Part shown: piece after piece, positions 21,973 through 33,948 of the stretch
Numbering within the stretch: the stretch's first letter is position 1
Layout of the letters: every line of letters starts with the position of its first letter
NCBI GenBank assembly: GCA_031285685.1
Contig: JAITVS010000038.1
Span: forward strand, 1 to 33,948
Direction of reading: 5' to 3'
From: Tannerella sp.
GTDB taxonomy: Bacteria > Bacteroidota > Bacteroidia > Bacteroidales > Tannerellaceae
Length of the DNA stretch: 33,948 bases
The notes under the pieces: generated by a model
What the model was told of the DNA's origin: nothing
The model's input: only the letters and a program-made list of their open reading frames with translations
Databases searched by the model: none
Program-made: the position numbers and the translations under genes

Positions 21973-22686
21973 TTAATTAAATTTGATCTGATATGTATTA
22001 TCTCTGACCGAGTAGCTCATAGATGTTATTTCCGAAAGTCCGTTCAACACCTGATTCAAGTCATCTTTAAGTTCAATCTTTCCGGAACAGAATATACCGG
22101 AAGCAGAAGAGGGCAATTTCATGGTAACATTATAATATCTGGCCAATCGCAACAATATATTTTCGATCGGTTCGCTCTTTAATATTAATGCTCCGTTACG
22201 CCAATAAGTATAGTTCTCCACATCAACCGGATAAAGTGTACAGGCATTTTCCGTATAGGTAAAACATTGATTGGGCTGCATTGAAGTCGGCTTTCCTCCT
22301 GGTGATTTGACATTCACTTTTCCTTTAACCAATACTACATCTATTTTATCATCTTCATTGTAAGCTGTTACATTTAGTTCCGTACCAATTACCTGCACAT
22401 CAATTTTTTTTGTCTTGATGATAAACGGTCTACTTCCATCATGCTTAACAGATGCATAGATCTCACCTTCTACGTAAATCTCACGTTTTTCTTTTGCAAA
22501 AGCGATGGGGTATTTTACTGTGGAACCTGTGTTCACCCATAATATCGTACTATCAGATAAAACAATTTGCACCCTTTTCCCATATGGTACTTTCAATTGA
22601 CTATAAATAAGATCAAAGACCTGTATTGTTTTTTCAGATCGGCTAAACTGTATATGTTTTGAAAATAAGTCATGATGATTTTTGTA
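21973..22686 (-). pseudogene. FecR-family anti-sigma factor, 5'-truncated
   Basis: The frame encodes the periplasmic FecR domain (KVPYGKRVQIVLSDSTILWV, REIYVEGEIYASVKHD, FIIKTKKIDVQVIGTELNV) and the C-terminal DUF4974 domain (ILLRLARYYNVTMKLP, GLSEITSMSYSV). Family members also carry an N-terminal cytoplasmic sigma-binding domain and a transmembrane helix, about 100 residues more, and both are missing. Upstream of the apparent TTG at 22596 the frame stays open (SRSEKTIQVFDLIYSQLK) until TAA at 22687-22689. It has no ATG before the FecR domain. That TAA is also the stop codon of the neighbouring mobile-element gene. The gene therefore appears cut near 22650-22690, and its sigma partner is absent from the window. 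Without the membrane part it cannot relay the receptor signal. Confidence 0.8.
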
Positions 22687-23109
22687 TTAAATATTATTCA
22701 GATTACCCCACACACTGTATCCTTCCTTTGTTTTGCCATCCGGTTCTCCTAAAGCGTCCTGTACCTTGCCTTCACCGTTACGATTAAACCTTGAATGGGA
22801 TTGTCCGAAACCGGTTCCATGCCTGTCCATAATAACTGTACCGCCGGCATCTATTACTTTCTTTGCCAGAATTACGGTTTCGTTTACAAACGTTCCTTCG
22901 CTTGCAACCGAAATAAAGGCAACCGTATCGGGATTTGGCATAATTTCATCGTTTACAGGTATACCTTGTTGTCCGGCATCTTCCAGATAGATTCCGGTCG
23001 AAGATTTTCTGCCTGTTACTCCAAAACCAATGTAAGCATTTGCACAATTTGCTTTGCCCTGATCCTTGCCGGTTTTGTCTACTGATAGTTTGAATCCTTT
23101 TATTTTCAT
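22687..23109 (-). CDS. Unrecognised 140-aa mobile-element protein
   Basis: The ATG at 23109 is chosen. A longer in-frame ORF to 23187 would run through the left arm of the palindromic element at 23134-23300. I do not recognise a function. The middle (DTVAFISVASEGTFVNETVI, LAKKVIDAGGTVIMDRHG) has the strand-helix-strand look of a small Rossmann-like fold, followed by a Gly/Asn-rich tail (GTGFGQSHSRFNRNGEG). It has no signal peptide or membrane segment. It is the only gene between element A and the FecR breakpoint. Its last residues (WGNLNNI) abut the junction, so the native C-terminus may have been altered by the insertion. Confidence 0.72.
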   Translation of the reverse strand: MKIKGFKLSVDKTGKDQGKANCANAYIGFGVTGRKSSTGIYLEDAGQQGIPVNDEIMPNPDTVAFISVASEGTFVNETVILAKKVIDAGGTVIMDRHGTGFGQSHSRFNRNGEGKVQDALGEPDGKTKEGYSVWGNLNNI

Positions 23110-23133
23110 TTTTCTTAAATTTATGTCCGCAAG

Positions 23134-23300
23134 CAGACGGTTAGTAATTAATTGCGTCTTTTCCGTTGTAGTGTTTTTTGTAAGCAAGGTTTTTACAGAA
23201 AATACTACCCGAAGGGTGGAGATTTTTCGTAAAACCGGAGGTTCAACCTTGCAGACAAAAAACTCGAAACGAGATTTGCCAATTAATTACTGACTGTCTG
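23134..23300 (-). promoter_or_regulatory. Structured palindrome A, candidate single-stranded-DNA promoter
   Basis: An imperfect palindrome of 167 bp. Outer pairs: CAGAC (23134-23138) with GTCTG (23296-23300), and AGTAATTAATTG (23143-23154) with 23280-23291. Next comes TTTTTTGT with ACAAAAAA, then the shared core GCAAGGT (23184-23190) with ACCTTGC (23246-23252), and an inner stem around AAAATAC / GATTTTT. On the + strand of the right arm, CTTG (23248-23251) and GAGATTTG (23271-23278), 19 bp apart, resemble -33 and -7 elements, although the TA of the -7 is missing. The GAGATTTG lies in an internal loop that can itself form CTCG-AAA-CGAG. The right arm overlaps the last codons and the stop of the 90-aa gene. 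Confidence 0.65.
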
Positions 23301-23559
23301 TTTTCTGCATACGTCTTTCGTTATTTTCTGTTTCATATTCAGTAGGTATTTGGTAACATGATGCTAAAACATTAATAAAGTATTCGACATAGTCATGTTC
23401 CAATCCAAGATTGTCACATCCGGTTTCGATATCACTGAGCCGTAAATCGTTCAATGCCTTTAATTCGCGTAGATTCCGGATTTCATCTTGAAGATATTCT
23501 TCGGCTTGTTGTTTGTTACAACTGCATGAGTTGCATATACTGTCAATAATTGTATTCAT
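23287..23559 (-). CDS. Small unrecognised protein, 90 aa
   Basis: A predicted cytoplasmic protein with a short N-terminal cysteine cluster (CNSCSCNKQQAEEYLQDEI) followed by helical, acidic sequence (LRELKALNDLRLSDIETGCD). The Cys arrangement (CX2CXC) could bind a metal but is too little to assign a fold. It lies 29 bp after the 307-aa gene and is the last gene of the cluster headed by element B. Its final codons lie inside palindrome A. Function unknown. Confidence 0.65.
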   Translation of the reverse strand: MNTIIDSICNSCSCNKQQAEEYLQDEIRNLRELKALNDLRLSDIETGCDNLGLEHDYVEYFINVLASCYQIPTEYETENNERRMQKTDSQ

Positions 23560-23588
23560 CGTTGTAATATTTATTTAAGATTGTACTT

Positions 23589-24512
23589 TTATGAAATAAT
23601 TTTCAGGGGATTGCCAAAAAATGAATCGCATACGCCATATACTTCCTTTATACAATAATTGTATATATTTCGGTTATAATCTATTGCGAGGGAGAAGAAG
23701 TCATATTTTTGGGCGTTTAATTTCAATGTGATATCATGTTGCAGCGCCATCTCCAATACACTGCCGCCACCTTGAATAGAACTATAAATGCCACAATAGT
23801 TCCCTTTTGGAACAACGACTTTATTGATATTGAAACTTGCTTTAATAAGATCATGAATGCAGACCTTTCCGGTAAATGTGAGAAGATTGGCTCCACAACT
23901 GGTATTCTCAAGCTCCTGGTAAAAATCTTCATACGTGACCAATTCTTTATCATTCCGGTATTTCTTATCAGGAAACCTGCCATAAACCTTTTCTCCATGT
24001 TTAAGTAATAGTTTTTTTACTTTAGCCGGATTCAGTTTGAGCGCATCTACCATATCGCCGAAGTAGGATTCTTCATAGCAGAATCCGTCTTGGGATTCCA
24101 GCCAGTATGAGTTAATGCAATCGTTGTTCGAATACAATTCTATGCGAACCGGAATATCTGAACTATTACGGCATAATTGTCCCAACACATCAGAATCATC
24201 TTTTGCATAGATATGTTCTTTGATAGAATCTTCGTTTTCCTCGAAAAAGGATTCCACATCATCTTTTATGTACCCTGTGTTTTTGCACTTTTGTTTCAGT
24301 TCTTGAATAGCATCATATACGGCATTAATTTCGGCATCAATATACCAGTCGTTTATACTTTCATATAGATGATCAGCACATTTTTCTTTGATGCATTGTT
24401 GCAAAATTTCATAATTTCCATCTAATGAATCATTGCGATCTACAAAGGTCAATAGATAGAACCTATTCATAAAACCTATAACTGTTTCCAGTGTTAATTC
24501 TTTTGTTTTCAT
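23589..24512 (-). CDS. Unrecognised 307-aa mobile-element protein
   Basis: No family recognised. The N-terminal ~115 residues are helical and acidic (IKDDVESFFEENEDSIKEHI). The remainder is mixed alpha/beta, with PVRIELYSNNDCINSYWLES, KLNPAKVKKLLLKHGEKVYG and VVPKGNYCGIYSSIQGGGSV. There is no signal peptide or transmembrane segment. It follows the 103-aa gene by 79 bp, with a possible weak stem-loop in the gap, and precedes the 90-aa gene. Start at the ATG ending at 24512. It is probably a cargo protein of the element; no specific role can be supported. Confidence 0.72.
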   Translation of the reverse strand: MKTKELTLETVIGFMNRFYLLTFVDRNDSLDGNYEILQQCIKEKCADHLYESINDWYIDAEINAVYDAIQELKQKCKNTGYIKDDVESFFEENEDSIKEHIYAKDDSDVLGQLCRNSSDIPVRIELYSNNDCINSYWLESQDGFCYEESYFGDMVDALKLNPAKVKKLLLKHGEKVYGRFPDKKYRNDKELVTYEDFYQELENTSCGANLLTFTGKVCIHDLIKASFNINKVVVPKGNYCGIYSSIQGGGSVLEMALQHDITLKLNAQKYDFFSLAIDYNRNIYNYCIKEVYGVCDSFFGNPLKIIS

Positions 24513-24536
24513 ATTTGCAAGTTTTTATAAACAATA

Positions 24537-24562
24537 AGAGAGCGACTTTCCGGCCACTCTCT
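24537..24562 (-). terminator. Weak stem-loop between two genes
   Basis: AGAGAG (24537-24542) pairs with CTCTCT (24557-24562) across a 14-nt GC-rich loop, in the gap between the 103-aa and 307-aa genes. It is short, and the sequence after it is only moderately U-rich. It may attenuate rather than end transcription. Confidence 0.3.
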
Positions 24563-24591
24563 CACTATTTTGTTAATTATATATTTGTTAT

Positions 24592-24903
24592 TTAATTGAT
24601 ATTGATCGTTATATCAGTGTTTTTGTAAAGTATATTAAGGAAAGATACTTCTAAGATATCACCTTTGAACAGCGATTGTGAGCCATACCGTATCCGTTGT
24701 CTGAGTGTGAATTTTTGATTGCCAAAGCTCCAGGAGAAGTAACCGGATAAGCTTCTGTATTGCGGGCTGATATTAAAATCTATGAGCCATGCATTAAGCT
24801 CTACAATATTATCTGCAAGCAGCAACATATTCAATATCTGGATGAATGCTTTTGAAGCATATTCATCAATCGGATGTATCGGGTTCGATATTATTATTTT
24901 CAT
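24592..24903 (-). CDS. Small unrecognised protein, 103 aa
   Basis: No family recognised. It has a short helical N-terminal half (EYASKAFIQILNMLLLADNI) and a beta-rich second half (GYFSWSFGNQKFTLRQRIRY). It is neither secreted nor clearly membrane-bound. Its ATG overlaps the stop codon of the DUF4326 gene (ATGA at 24900-24903), so translation of the two is coupled. It belongs to the cluster headed by element B. Confidence 0.68.
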   Translation of the reverse strand: MKIIISNPIHPIDEYASKAFIQILNMLLLADNIVELNAWLIDFNISPQYRSLSGYFSWSFGNQKFTLRQRIRYGSQSLFKGDILEVSFLNILYKNTDITININ

Positions 24904-25205
24904 AGTTCCGGTAAATTATCTAAATACTCTTTAATTATATCACCGTGGCACGGTGCGGGTTTACAAAAGCATCCCAGTACTTTCCCCTTCAATGCAAGGA
25001 TTTTTAGCTTAAATTCCGGATCATTTTTTAACCGTTCATAAAAATACACTCGGTATTTCTCTAAGGTTGCTCCTCTGTTTTCTCCCGGTTTTAACCGGAA
25101 CGGATTTCCGAAATAACCGTCTTGTCCTCTGCCGGCCCTGCCGATATAAACACCATAATTTCCGTTTTTGATATTTACGACTTGTGTTTCCATTTTGTAT
25201 CTCAT
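24900..25205 (-). CDS. DUF4326 family protein
   Basis: About 101 residues of a small cytoplasmic domain found widely in phages and mobile elements, with no established biochemical function. The signature parts are present: NGNYGVYIGRAGRGQDG, the GNPFRL motif, GATLEKYRVYFYERL, and the C-terminal KGKVLGCFCKPAPCHGDII with conserved Cys and His residues that may coordinate a metal. The ATG ending at 25205 (MRYKMETQ) is chosen; the one ending at 25193 is equally possible. It is the first gene after element B and overlaps the next gene by an ATGA. Confidence 0.85.
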   Translation of the reverse strand: MRYKMETQVVNIKNGNYGVYIGRAGRGQDGYFGNPFRLKPGENRGATLEKYRVYFYERLKNDPEFKLKILALKGKVLGCFCKPAPCHGDIIKEYLDNLPEL

Positions 25206-25234
25206 TTTTATTATCAATATTTTTGGCTGTGGAA

Positions 25235-25397
25235 GCCATTATCCGTACCACGCAAGCCGGCAAAGACCGTGTTTGAACTATGCAAATTTTTCAGGAAAAT
25301 ACCTCCTGAGCGAAGCGAAGAGGGAAGATTTTCCGCAATAAAATTTGTACGGTTTTAAAACACGGAAATATCTTTGCTGCGTGGTACGGATAACGGC
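25235..25397 (-). promoter_or_regulatory. Structured palindrome B, candidate single-stranded-DNA promoter
   Basis: The clearest of the four outer stems: 20 bp at 25235-25254 against 25378-25397 with one mismatch. Inside it are GCAAAGA/TCTTTGC, CCGTGTTT/AAACACGG, and CAAATTT (25283-25289) with AAATTTG (25341-25347). That last pair occupies the place of the GCAAGGT/ACCTTGC stem of the other copies, a compensatory GG:CC to AA:TT change. The inner stem carries GGAAAAT/ATTTTCC. On the + strand of the right arm, TTTG (25344-25347) and TATCTTTG (25369-25376), 21 bp apart, match -33 and -7. A 5-nt AAATA bulge covers the TA of the -7. The DUF4326 gene starts 30 bp beyond the left arm. Confidence 0.72.
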
Positions 25398-25415
25398 TTT
25401 TATTGCTTTTTGCAT

Positions 25416-27140
25416 TTAAGAAAGATTGCTGTCTATTGTTTTCCTTAATTCTTCTTTCGTTTCTTCCTGTATCACACGCCCTTTGATTTCAGCAGTATAA
25501 TTGATTCTTTCCATGAATAAGGTATTGCTGTATATCTTGATTCCTTTGTAAAATTCGATATACTCAAGTTCATAATATGGATTGATTTGCAGTTGTTTTA
25601 GCTTTTTATCTACATATGGTTTAGTAAATAAAGAATCATTGTCTGCAATCATTTTTTCAAGCCATGTGCTGTGGTAAGTGCCGATTTTTTTATCGAATAC
25701 CTGTTGAGGTTTGATCGAATGCGGACTTCTTCTTGTCATGATCAGAAATGCCGGAGAACCGGAATAACGTGCTGTTTTATAAAATCCCAGATAACAATGT
25801 CCAACCTTGCAAAAGGTATAATCTCCTTTGTTGCTTTTCAGGCCGGAAAGAGAAACTTCACCCCCGAAAAATTGTTGCGGAAGTCCGGTAAGATTTATAA
25901 AATCATCAATATATCGTTGTGGAACATACTTTTGTAATATATCACTATGGTCTAAATAATTCCTGAAGATCCGCTGGGAAATTTCGAGTGATATTAATTC
26001 CGGCCTTGCATATGATATGTCCCGGTCGCTGTGCGCTATTGCTTTTTCAACGATTTCTTCTGTTTGCAACTCTTTGGGCATTTGTTTAAACCATTCGAAT
26101 GACTGGTTGTATTCTAAGCAAAATGCAGCAAAATCATCATTCCATATATGGTTTGGGATTTTAGGTAAACCTCTGTCTTTTTTAACGAATGCCTTGCATA
26201 CTTTATCTGTTAATAGATGAATATCACGATCATCCATAATGAAATCGTAGCTTTTTCTATTGTCAATACGTTCTATCGCTTTTAACAGTCTGGGTATAGT
26301 ACGGCAATTTGGAGGTAATTTTTTAAAATGGTATGGTGAATGATCTATGATAGCATCAGCCATCCGGTCGTCAATGCAAGAGTATATCTGCTTCCAGACT
26401 TCATCACTGAACAGCTTATAGTTCCCTTTACTTTCTTTATCTATAGCAATAAGAAATATTTCATATGAATACCTGTCTTCGGGAATGAGGTCAAAGCCAT
26501 ATTTTGCCAATAACTTCCAGTAATCGTAATCTTTAAATTCATTGGGGATTAATAGCGTTGCATCTTTTGCAGACAAACGTTCAATATTAAAAAATCCCAT
26601 GTAAAAATCTTTGGTTTTGATATTTGGGGGTGTTAAACCGAGTAATTGATTTGCCAGTTCATGCTTTTGGTCGTCAGGCAACGGATGGGAATAAGAACGG
26701 TTGGAACGTCCGTAAGATGTAGAAATTGTCGTGCCGAAAATAGAAAACAAACCTTTATATACAGCAAATGAATCCCATATATTTGCCGGGATAAAGGATA
26801 GTAACCCTATATTTTTAGAGGTAAGGATCAATAGCTGTTTAAGCATATGCCTGTTGACTTTAGCTGCCGGAACATGTTTGATATTTTCCACATCACATTC
26901 AATCGCCTTTTCGCAGACTTTCGTCGTGAGGACTTCCGGTACAACAGCCGATAAATCAAACTTGCCGCCGGATGAGTTTTCAATGACCTTGATAGTATCA
27001 TCCGTCGTTAAAAATTCAGCGGGTAATTCTTTTAAAATGCTGATATGCCCTTCGTCAATGGCGGCTTGTGCTATTTCTCCAGTGATTAAATGATCCGGCA
27101 AGTAACTGATTGCCGTATGAATACTGATATATTTTCCCAT
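25416..27140 (-). CDS. Repeat-rich unrecognised 574-aa protein
   Basis: The protein contains loosely repeated units of roughly 30-40 residues built on a P-x2-L-x-T-x-E/K pattern followed by an amphipathic helix: LPDHLITGEIAQAAIDEGHI, VPEVLTTKVCEKAIECDVEN, MPKELQTEEIVEKAIAHSD. These resemble the solenoid repeats of DUF4116-type proteins, which suggests a binding surface rather than an enzyme. The last ~140 residues (GDYTFCKVGHCYLGFYKTAR, SGSPAFLIMTRRSPHS) form a different domain. There is no signal peptide. It is last in the cluster headed by element C, 73 bp after the methyltransferase-helicase gene, and the two may act together. Function unknown. Confidence 0.72.
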   Translation of the reverse strand: MGKYISIHTAISYLPDHLITGEIAQAAIDEGHISILKELPAEFLTTDDTIKVIENSSGGKFDLSAVVPEVLTTKVCEKAIECDVENIKHVPAAKVNRHMLKQLLILTSKNIGLLSFIPANIWDSFAVYKGLFSIFGTTISTSYGRSNRSYSHPLPDDQKHELANQLLGLTPPNIKTKDFYMGFFNIERLSAKDATLLIPNEFKDYDYWKLLAKYGFDLIPEDRYSYEIFLIAIDKESKGNYKLFSDEVWKQIYSCIDDRMADAIIDHSPYHFKKLPPNCRTIPRLLKAIERIDNRKSYDFIMDDRDIHLLTDKVCKAFVKKDRGLPKIPNHIWNDDFAAFCLEYNQSFEWFKQMPKELQTEEIVEKAIAHSDRDISYARPELISLEISQRIFRNYLDHSDILQKYVPQRYIDDFINLTGLPQQFFGGEVSLSGLKSNKGDYTFCKVGHCYLGFYKTARYSGSPAFLIMTRRSPHSIKPQQVFDKKIGTYHSTWLEKMIADNDSLFTKPYVDKKLKQLQINPYYELEYIEFYKGIKIYSNTLFMERINYTAEIKGRVIQEETKEELRKTIDSNLS

Positions 27141-27213
27141 GATTTTATTTTTGATTTGTTTTTGATTTGAGAGGTTGATATAAAAATGGTGATAGGCTTT
27201 TCCTTGTTATTAT

Positions 27214-30213
27214 TTATGCAATTTGCTGTCCGCCCCATGCTATGTAAAAATTGCCTTCATCATCCTGTTCGCGCGTCAACAGGCTCTCGATAATAGACGG
27301 AGAGATTCCGAATTCATCAAAGATCTCGGATTCTTCTTTTACTTCGCCGGATTTTATGAACTCGTTCAGCCGTTCTTTGGTTAAGACAAGCGCCATCAGG
27401 TTTTGCTCAATAGAGCCGGAATAGCTGATAAAATGAACCCTTGTATCATTCTCTGAGTCAAGACGGATAAACCGGAAGTAGAACTGTTCCATTTTGGGGA
27501 TATTCCATTGTAAAGATTCAAGTATTACATCATCACAGGAGGGGATATTTGCAGAACTTTTCAGGCTTTGTTGCGTACATACCAGTATGCCGTTTTCAGT
27601 AGCTTCAAACTGCTCAATTATCTTTTCCCGTCGCCTGAAAGAGACATTACCCTTGATTACGAAAATCGGTCTGTCCGGGAACCGATTGTTCAGGAATAGT
27701 TCATACATACCCAATGCATCCAAGGTTGTACAGCCTATTGCGACTTTGCCTTTTATAGATTTAACCAAATATTCTATCTCTCTGGCTTTCGTTGGATATG
27801 GTTTACCATAGTACCCTTCCATACTGTTCGGGATAGAACAAGCTTTTATAAGCAGTTGAATCTGGCGGATTAACTTTAATTGAGATTCTTTCCGGGCATC
27901 GTCTATTTTGCTGAAATACAGATGGACAATACGATAAAATTCTTTTAATACAGTTTTATAAACCGCTTTTTCTCCTTCGGAAGGCTTTACATAATGAGTG
28001 AAAATTTCATATTTTTCTCCGGCAAATTCCCTGAACTTACGTGTTATAATGGTTTTTGCTATAATTTTGGCAAGATGATCTTTGTTATATACATCCTGGT
28101 TTTGCTTTTCGATACCAAAAACAGTTGCCCGGACCGGACAGAAACATGCTTTAAATAGCCTTGAACCACCCCGGGCCGGAAACGGCTCGCCATAATATCC
28201 ATTTGTTTCATTATAGATATTTTTATCCTGATCCTGATAATAGCTTTCCATACACCAGCAAATCATATTGACGGAATTGTTATACAGCAACTCTATCTGG
28301 CTGTATAGCTCATTAATATTGTTACGGGTAGTCGTTCCGGTGGCAAGTAATTTATATTTTAATCTACGGAAGATATCAAGGGAATTTTTTGTCCGGTTCG
28401 CCAGTGGGTTTGTTATTTCATCAGATTCGTCAAAGAGAAGGCAAATTTTTTGCGAACGGCTTTTGACAAATTTCATCAGGTACCTTTTTAGTTTGCTCAA
28501 CATCGAAAGCGATACAACGACGAATATACCTTCCGGGATATTGTTAAAGTCATCCCATTTTTTCACGGTAATGAATTTTTCACCGTTTCGCTTCAGGAAA
28601 GGTTCCCATGTCAGGTTTATTGCAATAGCAGGCGCGGTTACAATTACATTTTTAACCCGTTTGTTCAATAAATGGTATCTTCCATAATGATAGATAACCG
28701 CTGTCTTTCCCGATCCTTGTTGCCAGTTTAATAATGTGTATCGTTTTTGAAAAAAACAATTCATATCGTGAATTTGCAGCTTGGTAAAACGGCAAGTCTT
28801 CATTTCCTTATTGACAAAGGTTTGTTTACGTATATAGGCATGTAAATGCGGATCGGCTGTCATTTCTGAAAACGGTTGGGATTGTATCTCGAATCCGGTT
28901 CGTTTTCGTGCAATCGTTTTTGTTGCTGTTTTATACTGTTTCAGTAATTTGGATGTCCATTCTTTGGGCAGTGGAAGTTTAGTGTTATTCAGTATAAGGT
29001 CATTTAGGGATGTGTATTTTTTCTTTATTCCGGTTAGCAGCCTGGGGGCATATTCTTTCAATTTGAAACCATAGTTTGTCCGGACAAGCGCAACCTCCTT
29101 ACGTGGGACGTCATTCTGTTTTTTTATATACCGATAAATGACGGATAAGACCTTGGCCGGTGTTAGCTTTCGTTTTTCCCATTGTTTAAATTCTTCTTTA
29201 CTACATTCAAGGGGTGGAGTTTGATTCCGGTACTTAGAAACAAGGGCTACAGCTTTTTTATAATGCTTCTGTAAATGCGGATGCATCTTCAATTCGTACA
29301 GATATTTTTTCAGGAGGTATTCGAACCTTTGAATTTCTTCTTTTCCCAATTCTTGTGTTTCCCGCCGGATTTGCAGGCGTAAAGATTGTTTTACCTGTTT
29401 TGCTACATGGATACGGCCTTGCAGTTCTTCAATACTTACAAATTCATCTGCTTTATATGGATGCAATGGTATTTCCCGTGACTCCCTCATGAATACCATA
29501 ATTTTTGTCGCGAAATATTCTACACCAGTTGATGCAAAAGCATTCTCCGGCAATTTGGTTTGTCCGATAAAAGAGAAATCGCGGTTGATTGTAGTCACCC
29601 GCGATTTTTCCCAGAATTCACTGCTTAAAAAGGAACAAGGGACAATCAGCAGCAATATACCTGTGGGATTTAATACCCAATACGCCTTATTCATGTAGTA
29701 AAATTGCGAGAGTGTACCATCTATTTCCAGATTAAATGGCGGATTTCCGATTATATAATCGAAACGTTGTTCCGGATTATAACAACAAAGATCATTCATC
29801 TCTATATTGGCATCAGGATATAAGTGTTTTGCTACCTTAACAGCATTTGCATCAATGTCGAAACCGTATGCGTTATACAAATTAGGTAGATGGTTAAAAA
29901 AATTACCTATTCCACAACACATGTCTAGCACCATATCTGTTTCGTCCGGTGATACTAATTCCACCATTTGTTTGCAGATTTCATGCGGAGTGAAAAACTG
30001 TCCCATTTCAAATTCTTTTTTGGCTCGGGAGTATTCTTTATAACTGGCAAAATCCGCTTGTTTCAGATTGTGTAATCCACCGATGCCAGTGTATGTGTTG
30101 TAGATAGCCTCTTTGGTTAAGTTATTTTTACTACTCTCAATGCAATGAAGTATTTTACTATTAATTTCCGCACGACAGCTTTGGCCTATTTTCTGAGGAA
30201 TAATGTTGTACAT
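27214..30213 (-). CDS. N6-adenine DNA methyltransferase-SF2 helicase fusion (possible antirestriction protein)
   Basis: A 999-residue cytoplasmic fusion. The N-terminal part is a gamma-class-like N6-adenine methyltransferase: GQFFTP (71-76), the S-adenosylmethionine motif LDMCCGIGNF (96-105), and catalytic NPPF (157-160). The second half is a superfamily 2 helicase: Walker A GSGKT around Lys503, Walker B DESD at 595-598 in place of the usual DEAH, ATGTTTRNN as motif III, and the C-terminal RecA-like domain with QQSLKSSANIPSCDDVILES and QFYFRFIRLD as motif VI. Methylase-helicase fusions of this layout include the phage P1 DarB antirestriction protein. In a mobile element it may shield incoming DNA. 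An unusual Shine-Dalgarno precedes the ATG. A restriction or defence role is an alternative. Confidence 0.85.
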   Translation of the reverse strand: MYNIIPQKIGQSCRAEINSKILHCIESSKNNLTKEAIYNTYTGIGGLHNLKQADFASYKEYSRAKKEFEMGQFFTPHEICKQMVELVSPDETDMVLDMCCGIGNFFNHLPNLYNAYGFDIDANAVKVAKHLYPDANIEMNDLCCYNPEQRFDYIIGNPPFNLEIDGTLSQFYYMNKAYWVLNPTGILLLIVPCSFLSSEFWEKSRVTTINRDFSFIGQTKLPENAFASTGVEYFATKIMVFMRESREIPLHPYKADEFVSIEELQGRIHVAKQVKQSLRLQIRRETQELGKEEIQRFEYLLKKYLYELKMHPHLQKHYKKAVALVSKYRNQTPPLECSKEEFKQWEKRKLTPAKVLSVIYRYIKKQNDVPRKEVALVRTNYGFKLKEYAPRLLTGIKKKYTSLNDLILNNTKLPLPKEWTSKLLKQYKTATKTIARKRTGFEIQSQPFSEMTADPHLHAYIRKQTFVNKEMKTCRFTKLQIHDMNCFFQKRYTLLNWQQGSGKTAVIYHYGRYHLLNKRVKNVIVTAPAIAINLTWEPFLKRNGEKFITVKKWDDFNNIPEGIFVVVSLSMLSKLKRYLMKFVKSRSQKICLLFDESDEITNPLANRTKNSLDIFRRLKYKLLATGTTTRNNINELYSQIELLYNNSVNMICWCMESYYQDQDKNIYNETNGYYGEPFPARGGSRLFKACFCPVRATVFGIEKQNQDVYNKDHLAKIIAKTIITRKFREFAGEKYEIFTHYVKPSEGEKAVYKTVLKEFYRIVHLYFSKIDDARKESQLKLIRQIQLLIKACSIPNSMEGYYGKPYPTKAREIEYLVKSIKGKVAIGCTTLDALGMYELFLNNRFPDRPIFVIKGNVSFRRREKIIEQFEATENGILVCTQQSLKSSANIPSCDDVILESLQWNIPKMEQFYFRFIRLDSENDTRVHFISYSGSIEQNLMALVLTKERLNEFIKSGEVKEESEIFDEFGISPSIIESLLTREQDDEGNFYIAWGGQQIA

Positions 30214-30220
30214 AGTTTTG

Positions 30221-30227
30221 TCCTCCT
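30221..30227 (-). promoter_or_regulatory. Strong Shine-Dalgarno for the methylase-helicase gene
   Basis: AGGAGG, 8 nt before the ATG at 30213, is a textbook Shine-Dalgarno. Most genes of this phylum, and nearly all others in the window, lack one. It overlaps the stop codon of the 77-aa gene (30227-30229), which couples the two genes. Confidence 0.7.
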
Positions 30228-30460
30228 TATCTTCTTAGTGTTAGTTTGTATTCTTCCGGGGTTGAAGACATTCTCTCAATGTAGTATTCTTCGTCTAATA
30301 TCGCTAAAACTAAATTCGCATCGTCATCATGTAGAAAACGAGATGTAATCGTTAATACGATTGTATCTTCACCTGTTTTCTCCAAAAAGGTGAATGCGTT
30401 ATAATCAACATGTAGTGAAGATAACTTCTTTCGTATACGTATTATGCTAATCTTTTCCAT
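30227..30460 (-). CDS. Small unrecognised protein, 77 aa
   Basis: A basic N-terminus (MEKISIIRIRKKLSSLHVD) is followed by alternating strands (DTIVLTITSRFLHDDDANLV) and a helix. It has no signal peptide or known motif. It ends 13 bp before the methylase-helicase start, with that gene's Shine-Dalgarno across its stop codon, so it may be a partner or translational leader for it. The 213-bp gap upstream, to the zinc-ribbon gene, holds only a 23-codon ORF. Confidence 0.65.
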   Translation of the reverse strand: MEKISIIRIRKKLSSLHVDYNAFTFLEKTGEDTIVLTITSRFLHDDDANLVLAILDEEYYIERMSSTPEEYKLTLRR

Positions 30461-30673
30461 ATCTATTTAATTTTGTATTGTTTACTATTTTCTTTTGGTT
30501 CGTCTTAAATATAAAAAAAGGACTAATTAGTGATCAGCCCTCTTTAAATTATTTCTGTATACCTGCTTTGCGTCATCAATGTTACAATCTGTATTCTTGT
30601 TCTTTCTTTATTTCATGAATAGATATTTTGCTCGCTGATTTAATCGCTTTCATTTCACCATATATATTAAAGG

Positions 30674-31234
30674 TTATTGTATTATATAATCCTGATAAAG
30701 TTTGTGAGGCATCCATAGTGAAGCGGAACCAAAGTCTTTCAGCGCTTTTTCATCTGCAATTATTGCTTCGCACAATGGATGATCCAGATATTCTTGTGAA
30801 TCCGGCCATGAAACAGGACTATAAAGTTGTTCCGGCTTAGGATGTCTTTTGAACTTTTTGATATACTCATATTCCGGGATATAACGTGCTCCGTTATCCT
30901 CTGAATTAAAGCAAAGATAGCCGACATCTTCCTGTTCAAAGTAGCTGGCGTCATCAGGATACTCTACCAATACAAAAAAATCACTCCAATCGGTTTCGCA
31001 ATATGTACAGTAAGACATTCCGGATTTAACATCGTATTCTGCCGGATGATTATTACAGAAAGGACATAGCAAGGTTTCTTTTAATGGAATATTCAGATCA
31101 TCCCTGGATACGCTTGTAACCTTAGAAAACGGCAGTTCTCCTGTTAATCTTAAATGCAGATCTTTTTCCTGTTCACTTGGCAATTCCTTTTTTGAGAAAT
31201 ACTGGTGAAGATCTTCTAATAATGTTCTGTTCAT
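30674..31234 (-). CDS. Zinc-ribbon protein, 186 aa, unrecognised
   Basis: The ATG at 31234 is chosen. The longer ORF to 31396 would read through the left arm of palindrome C. A CX2C-X15-CX2C zinc ribbon is formed by C57, C60, C76 and C79 (LLCPFCNNH ... MSYCTYCETDW). The remainder is acidic with many Tyr and Asp residues. No enzyme motif is seen. The ribbon suggests nucleic-acid or protein binding. It is the first gene after element C and heads the cluster with the 77-aa protein, the methylase-helicase and the 574-aa repeat protein. Confidence 0.75.
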   Translation of the reverse strand: MNRTLLEDLHQYFSKKELPSEQEKDLHLRLTGELPFSKVTSVSRDDLNIPLKETLLCPFCNNHPAEYDVKSGMSYCTYCETDWSDFFVLVEYPDDASYFEQEDVGYLCFNSEDNGARYIPEYEYIKKFKRHPKPEQLYSPVSWPDSQEYLDHPLCEAIIADEKALKDFGSASLWMPHKLYQDYIIQ

Positions 31235-31272
31235 AACTTTTATTTTTATAGTTAATACCCGGCCTGTAGAGG

Positions 31273-31438
31273 CCATTTTACTCACATATGCATCGGATAA
31301 TACTGCTGCTTTCATGTGCAAGGTTTTTCGGGGAAATACCGTCTTCGCTTGCGAAGAGGGAAGATTTTCCCGAAAACAGCGCTTGACCTTGCTCATGAAA
31401 TTTAAAGCAGTATTACCTTTGCTGGGTGAGAATAATGG
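31273..31438 (-). promoter_or_regulatory. Structured palindrome C, candidate single-stranded-DNA promoter
   Basis: Outer pairs: CCATT...CTCAC (31273-31285) with GTGAG...AATGG (31426-31438), two mismatches. Inside: AATACTGCT (31299-31307) with AGCAGTATT (31406-31414), TTTCATG/CATGAAA, core GCAAGGT (31318-31324) with ACCTTGC (31386-31392), TTTTCGGG/CCCGAAAA, and CTTCGC/GCGAAG at the tip. On the + strand of the right arm, CTTG (31388-31391) and TACCTTTG (31414-31421) lie 22 bp apart. All of the -7 except its first T is in an 11/13-nt internal loop. The zinc-ribbon gene begins 39 bp beyond the left arm. Confidence 0.72.
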
Positions 31439-31458
31439 TATATGTACATTATTTGCTT

Positions 31459-32595
31459 TTAGGAGATCTTTACCCGATTAAGCAATGCTCCTGAAATTTC
31501 ATGTAGTTCACGGCTTCTGCGTGGTTCGAGTTCCCGTGCATGGGCGGTAATAGCAGATGTAAGTTTCCAAAGAGTAGCTTCACCTTGTACACCATCATCC
31601 GGATTGTTATTCATCAATATTTTTTCGATACTGTCGCTATCAGTTGTAAGTAACGATCCTTTCTTAACAAGCGATTTCAATTCATTATTAAAATCGACCT
31701 CTATTTCGCTCGCTCCTTGTATCTCAATAGCTTTTCGCATGATGTTGTCCTTGCCAAATAATCCACGTGTTAAATCCCGGACTGCTGAAACGGTTGTTTT
31801 TGTATCAAGTTCATATGTCTGTTGACTAAGTTGCAGGTTGTCCGGTAAGCGAGAGCCGAGATGTACCTGCTTCATAATACTTTCTCTGACCATTCCATTC
31901 AGGCAGGCTCCGTTCAACAGGAATGCACGCATATCGACGGCGCCGTCTCCATAATCCGAAGTACTGAAACGGGCTCCGGCAAAAATAACAATATCGCCAT
32001 TTTTCCTTGTCGGTATGACAATCGGTTCCGGAAGAATCGTCTCTGCCCACACTTTCGTATCATTCATGTATGCATCGGCTACAACTGCTCCCTGAAATCC
32101 TGCTTCCTGTATGAATGCGGTGAGTATTTCAACGCTGTTCAGCCGCCGGTAACTATCGCTCAACACACCTCTTACCTCACATCCGACAGTCCGGATGAGT
32201 ACACGTGTCCGCTGTGTCCAGCTTGAATGTTCATTAAGTACTGTTGAAGCTAGTTTGCGTTGCCATTTGTCACCGTTTGCTAATTCTTTTAAATACTTCG
32301 CCGGGATATTCATTTTTTCGGCCAACTGATAAACGGCTTTTTCGTGTAGTGAAAACTGACCGGAATTCATATTCATGAGAACATGTCCATTGTGTTCGAA
32401 AGTGATTACCGGCTGTTTGTCGTTTAAACGTAAATTTACTCCAATAGGTGCGATATAGTCTTGCGCAATTTTGTTTTCTGAAATAAGCCGTTTCATTGTA
32501 GACTTTACTCCGGGAGTTTTGTTCTCAATCATTCTTTGAACTTTGTTGATTACAACTTCATTCAAACCCTGTTGCATTTCGATTGTTGATTCCAT
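31459..32595 (-). CDS. DUF932 family protein
   Basis: A 378-residue cytoplasmic protein of the phage/plasmid-associated DUF932 group, a common cargo of mobile elements with no settled biochemical role. The segment VLIRTVGCEVRGVLSDSYRR followed by LNSVEILTAF is the recognisable core, with FAGARFSTSDYGDGAVDMRA, LLNGACLNGMV and a C-terminal helical region (TAHARELEPRRSRELHEISG). Start at the ATG ending at 32595, preceded by an A-rich stretch. It stands alone between elements D and C, so each flanking gene cluster has its own palindrome. The start of element C lies only 21 bp beyond its stop. Confidence 0.82.
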   Translation of the reverse strand: MESTIEMQQGLNEVVINKVQRMIENKTPGVKSTMKRLISENKIAQDYIAPIGVNLRLNDKQPVITFEHNGHVLMNMNSGQFSLHEKAVYQLAEKMNIPAKYLKELANGDKWQRKLASTVLNEHSSWTQRTRVLIRTVGCEVRGVLSDSYRRLNSVEILTAFIQEAGFQGAVVADAYMNDTKVWAETILPEPIVIPTRKNGDIVIFAGARFSTSDYGDGAVDMRAFLLNGACLNGMVRESIMKQVHLGSRLPDNLQLSQQTYELDTKTTVSAVRDLTRGLFGKDNIMRKAIEIQGASEIEVDFNNELKSLVKKGSLLTTDSDSIEKILMNNNPDDGVQGEATLWKLTSAITAHARELEPRRSRELHEISGALLNRVKIS

Positions 32596-32633
32596 GTGTT
32601 TATTTTTTTAGTGATTAATAATATGGAAGCTGC

Positions 32634-32801
32634 TGATTTCAGTTCCACAGGCCTTATGGGTGCGTGTTTAGACTGCGCAAGGTTTTTCGGAAAAATACCG
32701 CAGCAGAGCGAGGACGATTTTTCTGAAAACCGCTTTAGCGGCTCGACCTTGCACTGTCGTTAAGAACACGCACCTATCTTTGCCTGTGAGAACTAAAATC
32801 A
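32634..32801 (-). promoter_or_regulatory. Structured palindrome D, candidate single-stranded-DNA promoter
   Basis: Outer stem: 32634-32652 with 32782-32801, including CACAGGC/GCCTGTG. Then GGTGCGTGTT (32659-32668) with AACACGCACC (32765-32774), and the core GCAAGGT (32677-32683) with ACCTTGC (32746-32752), then an inner stem. On the + strand of the right arm, CTTG (32748-32751) and TATCTTTG (32775-32782) lie 23 bp apart. TATCTTT is exactly the right side of a 6/7-nt internal loop between two GC-rich stems, so the -7 would already be open in the folded strand. The DUF932 gene begins 39 bp beyond the left arm. Confidence 0.72.
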
Positions 32802-33336
32802 ACCGTTTTGCGAATCTCTTGCTTCTTATGTGCTATAAAAGCAAGAGCCTAATCAATTATTTTAGATTGGTTAAATGTAAAAGGTGCAGGATAGGTGATG
32901 TTATATGGAAAAATATGAATGTTTTTTTGAAAATGGAGTGATCTATAAAGCAACTTCAGTAATAGTAAATGTTTAAAAAAAGACAGTTATTCAGGTAGGA
33001 GTTGCAGGACAAACGCATGAAATTTTTGAATCATCATTTTACGCGTTATAGAAGGGGTGCTCACAAAATTTTTAGATTTTTTGGAGAAGTACACCTTCTT
33101 CCATATAGCCTCAAACGAGGTTAATAGTTTTCATGCGTTTGCCCTGGTAGGAGTTGCTATAAAAGGTTGTGATTACAAAGAATGAATATGACAAAATAAG
33201 CTACAATGAATTAGCGGAAATAATTATAAGGCAGATGGTGGCATATTAACGCAAAAGTCTTTTATGCGTTAGTTTATTCCGTTATTTGGTGATGATGTAT
33301 GAGGTTTTTATCGGAATTTCTCCGGGAGAAATAACA
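32802..33336. other. Intergenic stretch between palindrome D and the TetR gene
   Basis: There is no credible gene here. The stretch holds the 142-bp miniature element at 33005-33146 with its target duplication. The rest is AT-rich DNA in which I see no further clear promoter, terminator or repeat. Confidence 0.6.
33005..33146. mobile_element. ISAs1-like miniature element (MITE) with 10-bp target duplication
   Basis: Terminal inverted repeats CAGGACAAACGCATGAAA (33005-33022) and TTTCATGCGTTTGCCCTG (33129-33146), 18 bp with one mismatch. They are flanked by the direct repeat GTAGGAGTTG at 32995-33004 and 33147-33156. The tips and the 10-bp duplication fit the ISAs1 family. The right tip differs at only two of 18 positions from the end of the insertion sequence at 3-1165. 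No coding capacity is seen. The perfect target duplication suggests a fairly recent insertion mobilised by a transposase in trans. Confidence 0.85.
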
Positions 33337-33945
33337 TTAAAATAAATTTGAGATTATATTTCGAGTGTATTTTTTTAGTTCTTCTATATCTTTTTCAGAA
33401 GATATACTGTTATCAAATGCCGGATTAGCTGTGCGGCTAATGAAATGATAATATACTCCTCCAATAATGAGAGAAAACTGTTTTTTGATTTCAGCAGTAT
33501 TGTGATCGGGCAAATCACAATACTGCTCGATTGAATAACTAAAAAAGATCTCTTTTTTTGACGTGGATCTTTTTGTTAGATAGTTATCATTGCTTATTTC
33601 CCAAGCTAACAATCTTTGCAAAAACAAATCCTCATGTAGGAAATCTATCAACGTATTTATGGCATTGCAAAGTCGTTCTATGGAGTTGTTGCCTGAAAAT
33701 TTCACATTATCTTCGAGCCAATAATCATAAGGTCTTATTAATTTGTCGAAAAGACCGTGAATGTTATCATATCTGTTATAGAATACATTGGCTTGAATTT
33801 TAGCTCTTTTTACAATATTTGTAATGGTTGCATTTTCGAAACCATGTTCAATGATCTCTGCTTTAGCTGCTGATAACAAATTTTCGTTGAGGTCACTTTT
33901 TTTACGTCTAATCGACCTGGTTTTCTTTACGTTTTGTGATTTCAT
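33337..33945 (-). CDS. TetR/AcrR-family transcriptional regulator
   Basis: A 202-residue regulator. The N-terminal helix-turn-helix is clear: LNENLLSAAKAEIIEHGFEN, ATITNIVKRAKIQANVFYNR, YDNIHGLFDKLI (residues ~19-70), with a basic tail before it. The C-terminal ~130 residues are the variable ligand-binding and dimerisation domain (IERLCNAINTLIDFLHED, QFSLIIGGVYYHFISR). It would bind DNA as a dimer and release it on ligand binding. The gene is complete, with its ATG 3 bp from the window end, so its promoter and divergent or upstream partner are out of view. Its target and ligand are unknown. Confidence 0.88.
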   Translation of the reverse strand: MKSQNVKKTRSIRRKKSDLNENLLSAAKAEIIEHGFENATITNIVKRAKIQANVFYNRYDNIHGLFDKLIRPYDYWLEDNVKFSGNNSIERLCNAINTLIDFLHEDLFLQRLLAWEISNDNYLTKRSTSKKEIFFSYSIEQYCDLPDHNTAEIKKQFSLIIGGVYYHFISRTANPAFDNSISSEKDIEELKKYTRNIISNLF

Positions 33946-33948
33946 AAC

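Follow-up and report, generated by a model that had tools for sequence, protein, structure and literature searches.

Promoters of the coliphage N4 virion RNA polymerase are hairpins in single-stranded DNA with an extra-stable small loop. In conjugation, gene expression from entering single-stranded DNA is known experimentally from a few enterobacterial plasmids, among them F and ColIb-P9, and in F the genes ygeA, ssb and yfjA depend on the sites Frpo1 and Frpo2 for their early expression (PMC9849209). These two sites, like the ssi/Frpo-like sites of ColIb-P9, are described as long hairpins of one strand in which promoter boxes are rebuilt in the stem and from whose foot transcription exits into the leading genes, with two Frpo sites in F and several candidates in other elements (PMC9849209, PMC11541004). 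A large survey of leading regions used known Frpo sequences and E. coli-type boxes, and the word stem 'Bacteroid' does not occur in its main text (PMC11541004). A further comparison is STAXI (RF01728), a structured motif that recurs close to ssb, antirestriction, integrase and topoisomerase genes, and for which the authors weighed a role in single-stranded DNA and favoured RNA (PMC2864571).

Here we analyse a 33,948-nt stretch of Tannerella sp. (Bacteroidales; contig JAITVS010000038.1 of assembly GCA_031285685.1, our contig C112 of a fragmented 5.6-Mb genome), called the window throughout. Minus-strand genes fill its last 11 kb, with four long palindromes (A–D) between them. An original prediction, made from the sequence of this stretch, took the palindromes for the Bacteroidales equivalent of Frpo, that is, hairpins that act as promoters while the DNA is still single-stranded. 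The predictions of this idea that sequence can test (covariation, strand, a one-arm -7 box and the genes behind) hold, and we consider it quite probable, on sequence evidence, that the hairpins are single-stranded-DNA promoters of Bacteroidota conjugative elements, analogous to Frpo of plasmid F.

The likeness to Frpo lies in the long one-strand hairpin, the promoter boxes rebuilt in its stem, the (here predicted) exit of transcription from the hairpin foot, the presence of several copies, and the ssb and DUF932 genes found behind Bacteroidota hairpins as in the leading region of F, which carries both (ygeB is inferred from its position to be the DUF932 gene). Unlike Frpo, the Bacteroidota hairpins have Bacteroidota sigma boxes, a GNA cap and a -7 box that often lies in a bubble, and our covariance model of the family (R1, below) gave no match up to E 10 on the F leading-region stretch, so no homology to the Frpo sequence family was found. 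When F was used as a fold control, strong hairpins appeared near ssb and upstream of the DUF932 operon, and other F stretches folded as strongly. The N4 promoters combine a phage polymerase with a short hairpin, unlike the long hairpin with sigma-factor boxes seen here. Unlike STAXI, which consists of pseudoknot repeats of Enterobacteriales, the hairpins gave no Rfam match (0 at E ≤ 1 in window positions 22500–33948 and 0 at the gathering threshold in five loci), and a known RNA family was rejected for the stretches scanned.

The hairpin family and its distribution

The strongest four 170-nt hairpin peaks of the window are the four palindromes, at the coordinates originally given:

23134..23300, plus-strand fold: hairpin A, heading the minus-strand gene 22687–23109; R1 score 52.2 bits
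25235..25397, plus-strand fold: hairpin B, core CAAATTT/AAATTTG, cap GCGAAGC, heading 24900–25217 (minus strand); R1 score 47.7 bits
31273..31438, plus-strand fold: hairpin C, heading the minus-strand gene 30674–31234; R1 score 57.3 bits
32634..32801, plus-strand fold: hairpin D, heading the minus-strand gene 31459–32595; R1 score 77.9 bits

Folding with DNA parameters and no G-T pairs gave energies of -33.6, -41.3, -40.1 and -40.4 kcal/mol for A, B, C and D, compared with means of -14.0 to -18.2 for dinucleotide shuffles (200 per hairpin); z-scores were -7.1, -7.9, -9.3 and -7.9, and 0/200 shuffles folded as low in each case. The core letters are as first described (GCAAGGT in A, C and D, CAAATTT in B), and the outer arms differ in sequence among the copies while keeping their complementarity over about 165 nt.

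Because the four window copies alone are too few, covariation was tested on 23 copies (the window plus relatives). Changes on both sides were seen in 28 of 49 pairs, a number that 0/500 shuffles reached (shuffled mean 17.1), and the covariation claimed for the palindromes was borne out; the number of further pair types in the same 23 copies was not above that in shuffles (195/500). In the 23-copy model, 87% of alignment cells are paired, versus 38–51% after one arm is slid. R1 was seeded with 23 of 25 distinct copies, all of which had been required to hold the -7 box described below or GAGATTTG. Searched against the window and 20 loci, it gave 34 copies, with none in some of the loci, and a further 7 low-scoring matches where it met the opposite strand of the same palindromes (echoes). 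The best copy scores 142 bits on one strand and 21 on the other, and complement strands generally score at most 24 bits. Later counts rest on 69 matches, 62 of them distinct, and leave out the 7 echoes and the weak matches L056:13367 and L067:13693.

R1 matches occur in 22/198 genomes of the order and in 10/296 genomes of a phylum sample, the window's own genome being included in both; eight of the latter are not of this order and come from three other families of its class. Scanning loci with relatives of the protein behind hairpin D (the D protein) showed hairpins of the same build, and the ten genomes carrying such relatives hold 89 R1 places, with 18 copies in one of them (G204). BLASTN of hairpin C against plasmid records gave no match, and BLASTN of a hairpin from a Parabacteroides locus (L022) matched 4 records. 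The window's genome has a fifth, more distant hairpin on a 5.8-kb contig (G000:C277:4485-4611, L053), which probably comes from the same element or a related one. From sequence and fold, the palindromes are best described as one DNA hairpin family, carried by mobile DNA of gut bacteria and related species.

At least 13 of the 37 hairpin places in the order scan lie within 1.3 kb of a contig end (for example G183:C15:1-124, G068:C25:120-237, the end of G151:C13 and the starts of G008:C14 and C18), which suggests that the hairpin repeats break assemblies, so that counts from draft genomes run low. Beside hairpin D, positions 32994–33157 carry an 18-bp inverted repeat (33005–33022/33129–33146) with the 12-bp direct repeat GGTAGGAGTTGC on both sides, and this segment looks like a small MITE-like insertion.

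Strand signals and predicted promoter anatomy

The consensus of the Bacteroides housekeeping sigma factor is given as TTTG / TAnnTTTG in PMC7366714. The right arms of the window copies carry boxes of this kind on the plus strand:

23271..23278, plus strand: -7-like box of A, GAGATTTG, degenerate and without TA; -33-like CTTG at 23248–23251, gap 19 nt
25369..25376, plus strand: -7 box of B, TATCTTTG; -33 TTTG at 25344–25347, gap 21 nt
31414..31421, plus strand: -7 box of C, TACCTTTG; -33-like CTTG at 31388–31391, gap 22 nt
32775..32782, plus strand: -7 box of D, TATCTTTG; -33-like CTTG at 32748–32751, gap 23 nt

TAnnTTTG had been claimed for the right arms, with a separate sequence given for A, whose box lacks TA; the spacing of 19–23 nt from CTTG or TTTG holds in all four. 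Across the family, TAnnTTT[GA] is present in 53/62 right arms and in 0/62 left arms read on the other strand, as predicted for a box on one arm only, the former count being partly selected for because the R1 columns include the box. In a pattern scan that did not require the box, 32/33 hairpins had it, with A as the exception (three further weak-fold matches without a box were not counted as hairpins). A -33-like [CT]TTG lies 17–23 nt ahead of the box in 46/53 copies.

In predicted folds of 56 of the 62 distinct copies, the mean pairing with an upstream base is 0.38 for the box, 0.77 for the spacer, 0.80 for the downstream stem and 0.82 for positions -26 to -16 (around the -33 element). The box is less paired than the downstream stem in 49/56 copies and less than the spacer in 40/56, and the least-paired position is the A of TA. 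The geometry first proposed is correct: when the plus strand folds, the right arm becomes the non-template strand, and transcription would exit the foot onto the left flank and into the minus-strand genes. In duplex DNA, the right-arm box faces away from the genes.

Two further features distinguish the strands. The loop is C-GNA-G in 30 of 38 distinct loops, compared with 2/38 for the complement motif and a mean of 5.7 after shuffling of letters. DNA mini-hairpins with GNA or GNNA loops are extraordinarily stable (PMC4686876). Among the GNA occurrences, GAA was seen 18 times, GCA 11, GGA 9 and GTA 4, so that N takes all four letters. RNA is not known to share this GNA-loop preference. The single mismatches in the stems are also one-sided: the 27 copies that came first from a pattern or fold scan have G.T 18/A.C 4, G.A 33/C.T 1, G.G 8/C.C 0 and T.T 9/A.A 1, and the 35 model-found copies have G.T 27/A.C 3, G.A 40/C.T 14, G.G 14/C.C 1 and T.T 12/A.A 6, counts that are not independent because the copies are related and some mismatch positions are inherited. 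Folding the other strand reverses the G.T/A.C ratio. The same count on model-fitted alignments was not used, as the model favours G-T pairs and reversed echo rows swap the counts. Together with the polarity relative to relaxase genes (below), the box, the cap and the mismatches mark one strand of the hairpin family. The hairpin and its covariation, the one-sided box with its weak pairing, the bias of cap and mismatches to one strand, and the orientation of the hairpins relative to genes and relaxase are all computed from the sequences.

Genes behind the hairpins and mobile context

The genes standing behind the window hairpins are the following:

22687..23109, minus strand: gene behind A, 140 aa, no family found
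24900..25217, minus strand: gene behind B, DUF4326 (Pfam, 5.2e-21)
30674..31234, minus strand: first gene behind C, no family above the cut-off, weak Zn-ribbon
27214..30213, minus strand: later gene of cluster C, N6-adenine methylase/SNF2 helicase fusion, 999 aa
31459..32595, minus strand: gene behind D, no Pfam match

The gaps from hairpin to gene start are 24, 17, 38 and 38 nt for A, B, C and D (starts at 23109, 25217, 31234 and 32595); the starts for A and C are internal ATGs chosen by us, the mechanically called open reading frames (ORFs) beginning inside the hairpins. The hairpins had been placed right at the heads of gene clusters. A minus-strand gene does adjoin all four, and the genes form one long same-strand run that the hairpins divide, rather than separate clusters; the right arm of A overlaps the 3' end of the neighbouring minus-strand ORF 23287–23559. 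Left of the palindrome group lie FecR, a TonB receptor and other chromosomal-looking genes, and a Pfam scan of 23 window ORFs found no relaxase or tra gene.

The strand relation was examined more widely. For hairpins with at least 800 nt available, the 5' side is mostly opposite-strand coding in 44/54, so that the genes there use the hairpin strand as template, as in 4/4 window cases; since the 3' side resembles the 5' side, the hairpins lie inside same-strand gene runs and this count shows strand rather than head position. For the relation to relaxase genes, the test set comprised 94 hairpins, 89 from the ten genomes with D-protein relatives and five of the order scan (two genomes), of which 54 shared their contig with a PF03432 match no more than 60 kb away and the rest did not. 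Hairpin and relaxase gene are on opposite strands in 52 of these 54 (23/25 relaxase loci) and in 56/59 within 100 kb. With later cases added by eye (G059 opposite; G025, G082 and a second G105 copy on the same strand) the count becomes 53/58. Both exceptions among the 54 have small relaxases of 306–310 aa. The fixed strand relative to genes and relaxase that had been expected is therefore borne out (44/54 and 52/54). Typically, the region that holds the relaxase gene enters last (PMC11541004), and since the hairpins lie opposite to relaxase genes, the hairpin strand would be the expected transferred strand.

One element of P. vulgatus ATCC 8482 illustrates the arrangement. Its relaxase gene is on the minus strand at 2048 kb, the adjoining gap at 2049–2050 kb is the presumed origin of transfer (oriT), rightward genes (presumed tra) follow the gap, and plus-strand hairpins lie at 2067–2075 kb and also at 1994 and 2009 kb. 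Another element of this genome is its mirror image. The hairpins at 1994407 (G198:C1, in L081) and 2009359 are on the other side of the relaxase gene, 39–54 kb away, on the same strand as the rest, and would enter late if they are on the same circle. The gap between mobA and traA (L075 5340–5980 and equivalents, alignment A5) holds a block conserved in five elements, divergent ones included, with an inverted repeat TGACATC/GATGTCA seen by eye, and is a candidate oriT. No nick-strand polarity was read from this region, MOBP-like nick motifs occurring on both strands.

The window's genome has six PF03432 matches, on other contigs. Overall, the conjugative elements identified by way of the D protein give the hairpins a firm mobile context, and the order scan a weaker one. 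In L091 (G025:C37), a strong hairpin at 3258–3382 has chromosomal-looking neighbours (decarboxylase subunits, dnaK) and shares its strand with a MobB-like relaxase gene 15 kb away; this copy may have decayed or been displaced, or it may depart from the mobile-element rule, and it was counted as a strand exception even though chromosomal genes appear to separate it from the relaxase.

The D protein has relatives at 66–93% identity in 19 loci of Bacteroides, Phocaeicola, Parabacteroides, Alistipes, a Prevotella bin and others. The relative in L022 (70% identity) is beside tra genes annotated as those of a conjugative transposon, in a Parabacteroides record filed as a plasmid whose other genes look chromosomal. 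We call elements of this kind CTnDOT-type. Weak tblastn matches linked the D protein to annotated DUF932 proteins. A DUF932 identity for 31459–32595 was not confirmed by Pfam (no PF06067 match at E ≤ 10), hhalign (probability 1.2) or BLASTP (match to the F DUF932 protein not significant), and because this assignment is unconfirmed in the window, the parallel with F rests on other loci.

Those loci come from seven that were fetched outside the order. In three, from three genomes and two families of the same class, ssb (PF00436, 1e-15 to 8e-20) and then a DUF932 gene (PF06067) follow directly behind the hairpin; a fourth has DUF932 without ssb in that place. In the other three loci the hairpin heads DUF6943 or a protein without a known family, one of these loci having a MobC-like gene nearby, and PRTRC-system genes lie near the ssb/DUF932 hairpin loci. 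Heads elsewhere include ArdA, N6 methylases, DUF4121, PriC, RadC, PRTRC_E and many proteins without known family, among 67 scanned (99 first or second ORFs minus near-duplicates, plus window genes, including 25416–27140, which is neither first nor second). Genes for ssb, DUF932, ArdA and methylases behind hairpins are what an Frpo-like role predicts. The methylase/SNF2 fusion of cluster C has homologues on 16 plasmid records (Bacillus, Lysinibacillus and one Vescimonas; coverage at least 80%, identity 36.5–40.5%) and is a candidate for an early-expressed anti-restriction or establishment protein.

Competing explanations and a proposed mechanism

A number of observations weigh against single-stranded-DNA promoters of conjugative elements. 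The copies are related, so that P values overstate; oriT and the transferred strand were placed from the position of the relaxase gene, and promoter activity is predicted from the sequence. The box of A has no TA, the four window copies have no mismatch asymmetry (G.T 3, A.C 3), and in a MAFFT alignment with the structure imposed (A2) G.T and A.C are equal (34 vs 36). In the copies with TACCTTTG (n=20) the box is paired at 0.53–0.67, so an open bubble is common and not universal. Mostly same-strand coding was found on the 5' side of 10/54 hairpins, and the 3' side has a similar bias (41 opposite, 10 same). The strand exceptions are G105:C68 (two copies), G206:C3:352735, G025:C37 and G082:C4, and the relaxase-test genomes were mostly chosen through the D protein, their elements being related. 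In the elements tested, 49/54 hairpins are more than 14 kb from the relaxase gene and thus not beside the presumed oriT. Among the 21 genomes with hairpins in the order scan, 9 gave no PF03432 match and 12 did (PF03432 only, with short contigs); TraG (TIGR03783) was found in 6/22 hairpin genomes, on the hairpin's own contig only in G059:C3, and no TIGR03783 match was found in the window's genome. Taken overall, what had been named as refuting the idea (homologues mostly away from cluster starts or in chromosomes with no mobile context) was not seen, the 10/54 with same-strand 5' coding and the chromosomal-looking L091 being departures from this.

Of the other explanations, the one that survives best is that the hairpins are single-strand initiation sites, which start complementary (lagging)-strand synthesis in the recipient through polymerase or primase priming, expression being secondary or absent. 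By the title of a 1997 paper of Masai and Arai, Frpo is reportedly both promoter and primer site. Initiation sites would be expected on the same strand and in the same mobile context as the hairpins, and we still regard this explanation as unlikely: it does not account for the sigma-like box and its spacing (46/53 gaps of 17–23 nt), for several copies per element, or for the position of the window's four copies and the ssb-DUF932 copies, each of which stands just before a gene.

RNA leaders, with the palindromes acting in mRNA as attenuators, protein-binding sites or riboswitch-like leaders, would fit strong folds before genes, and the lack of an Rfam match is compatible with them because new leaders exist. 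The mRNA, however, would hold the complement, with A.C rather than G.T mismatches and C-TNC-G rather than C-GNA-G loops, the mRNA-sense strand scores at most 24 bits with the model, and the conserved TAnnTTTG on the non-mRNA strand would be left unexplained; RNA leaders, which we hold to be very improbable, were rejected on this strand-specific loop and mismatch evidence.

It is just as doubtful that the palindromes work in duplex DNA, as operators or cruciforms bound by a regulator that the element encodes, or as ordinary promoters with antisense transcripts from the right-arm box. Copy B does fit the duplex consensus (TTTG-N21-TATCTTTG) and could fire in duplex DNA, away from the genes, but consensus boxes are common by chance (3 matches in the window, 1.83 expected), duplex sites give no reason for outer arms that diverge and yet stay complementary over about 165 nt, and neither the one-sided mismatches nor the loop type is expected of them. 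Least probable of all are REP/MITE-like palindromic repeats that spread as small mobile elements with no role in the host element, an idea that the multiple copies per genome (18 in G204), the many matches near contig ends and the copy among chromosomal-looking genes in L091 would suit and that the fixed strand relative to genes and relaxase, the compensatory divergence of the arms and the recurrence of the ssb-DUF932 arrangement in three genomes, from two families that are not of this order, speak against.

As single-stranded-DNA promoters, the hairpins could work as follows. The incoming transferred strand (plus in the window) would fold each element into a long hairpin with a GNA triloop cap, whose right arm would serve as non-template strand for the Bacteroidota housekeeping sigma factor, presenting a paired -33 CTTG/TTTG and, in the window copies 19–23 nt past it, TAnnTTTG in an unpaired or weakly paired bubble. 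RNA polymerase would initiate near the hairpin foot and exit onto the left single strand as template, so that mRNA of the minus-strand genes would be made at once on entry; once the second strand was made, the box would point away from the genes and the promoter would be off. It would be compatible with this scheme if the hairpins also served to start second-strand synthesis, which Frpo is reported to do. Here we infer the identity of the transferred strand, the recruitment of the polymerase, the timing and the shut-off.

We consider it likely that Bacteroidota have a class-wide family of single-stranded-DNA promoters, independent of Frpo in sequence, with a GNA cap and an often part-melted -7 bubble, present in several copies per element, each of which would switch on its own genes at entry (ssb, DUF932, ArdA, methylases and genes of no known family) and be silenced by second-strand synthesis. 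The principle itself is already known; no Bacteroidota single-stranded promoter was named among the matches listed from the open-licence literature (subscription papers and preprints being outside its scope), and we did not find the family, its sigma boxes or its GNA cap described in the open-licence literature searched. A second, sequence-unrelated solution with different sigma boxes would suggest that the principle arose more than once. With R1, early gene sets in mobile elements of Bacteroidota can be sought by a simple sequence search, and many of the 67 head proteins scanned matched no informative family. If the hairpins are such promoters, they would account for gene expression by conjugative elements of gut Bacteroidales from DNA that is still single-stranded, and the genes behind them would be a catalogue of new early establishment or anti-defence genes of Bacteroidota mobile elements.

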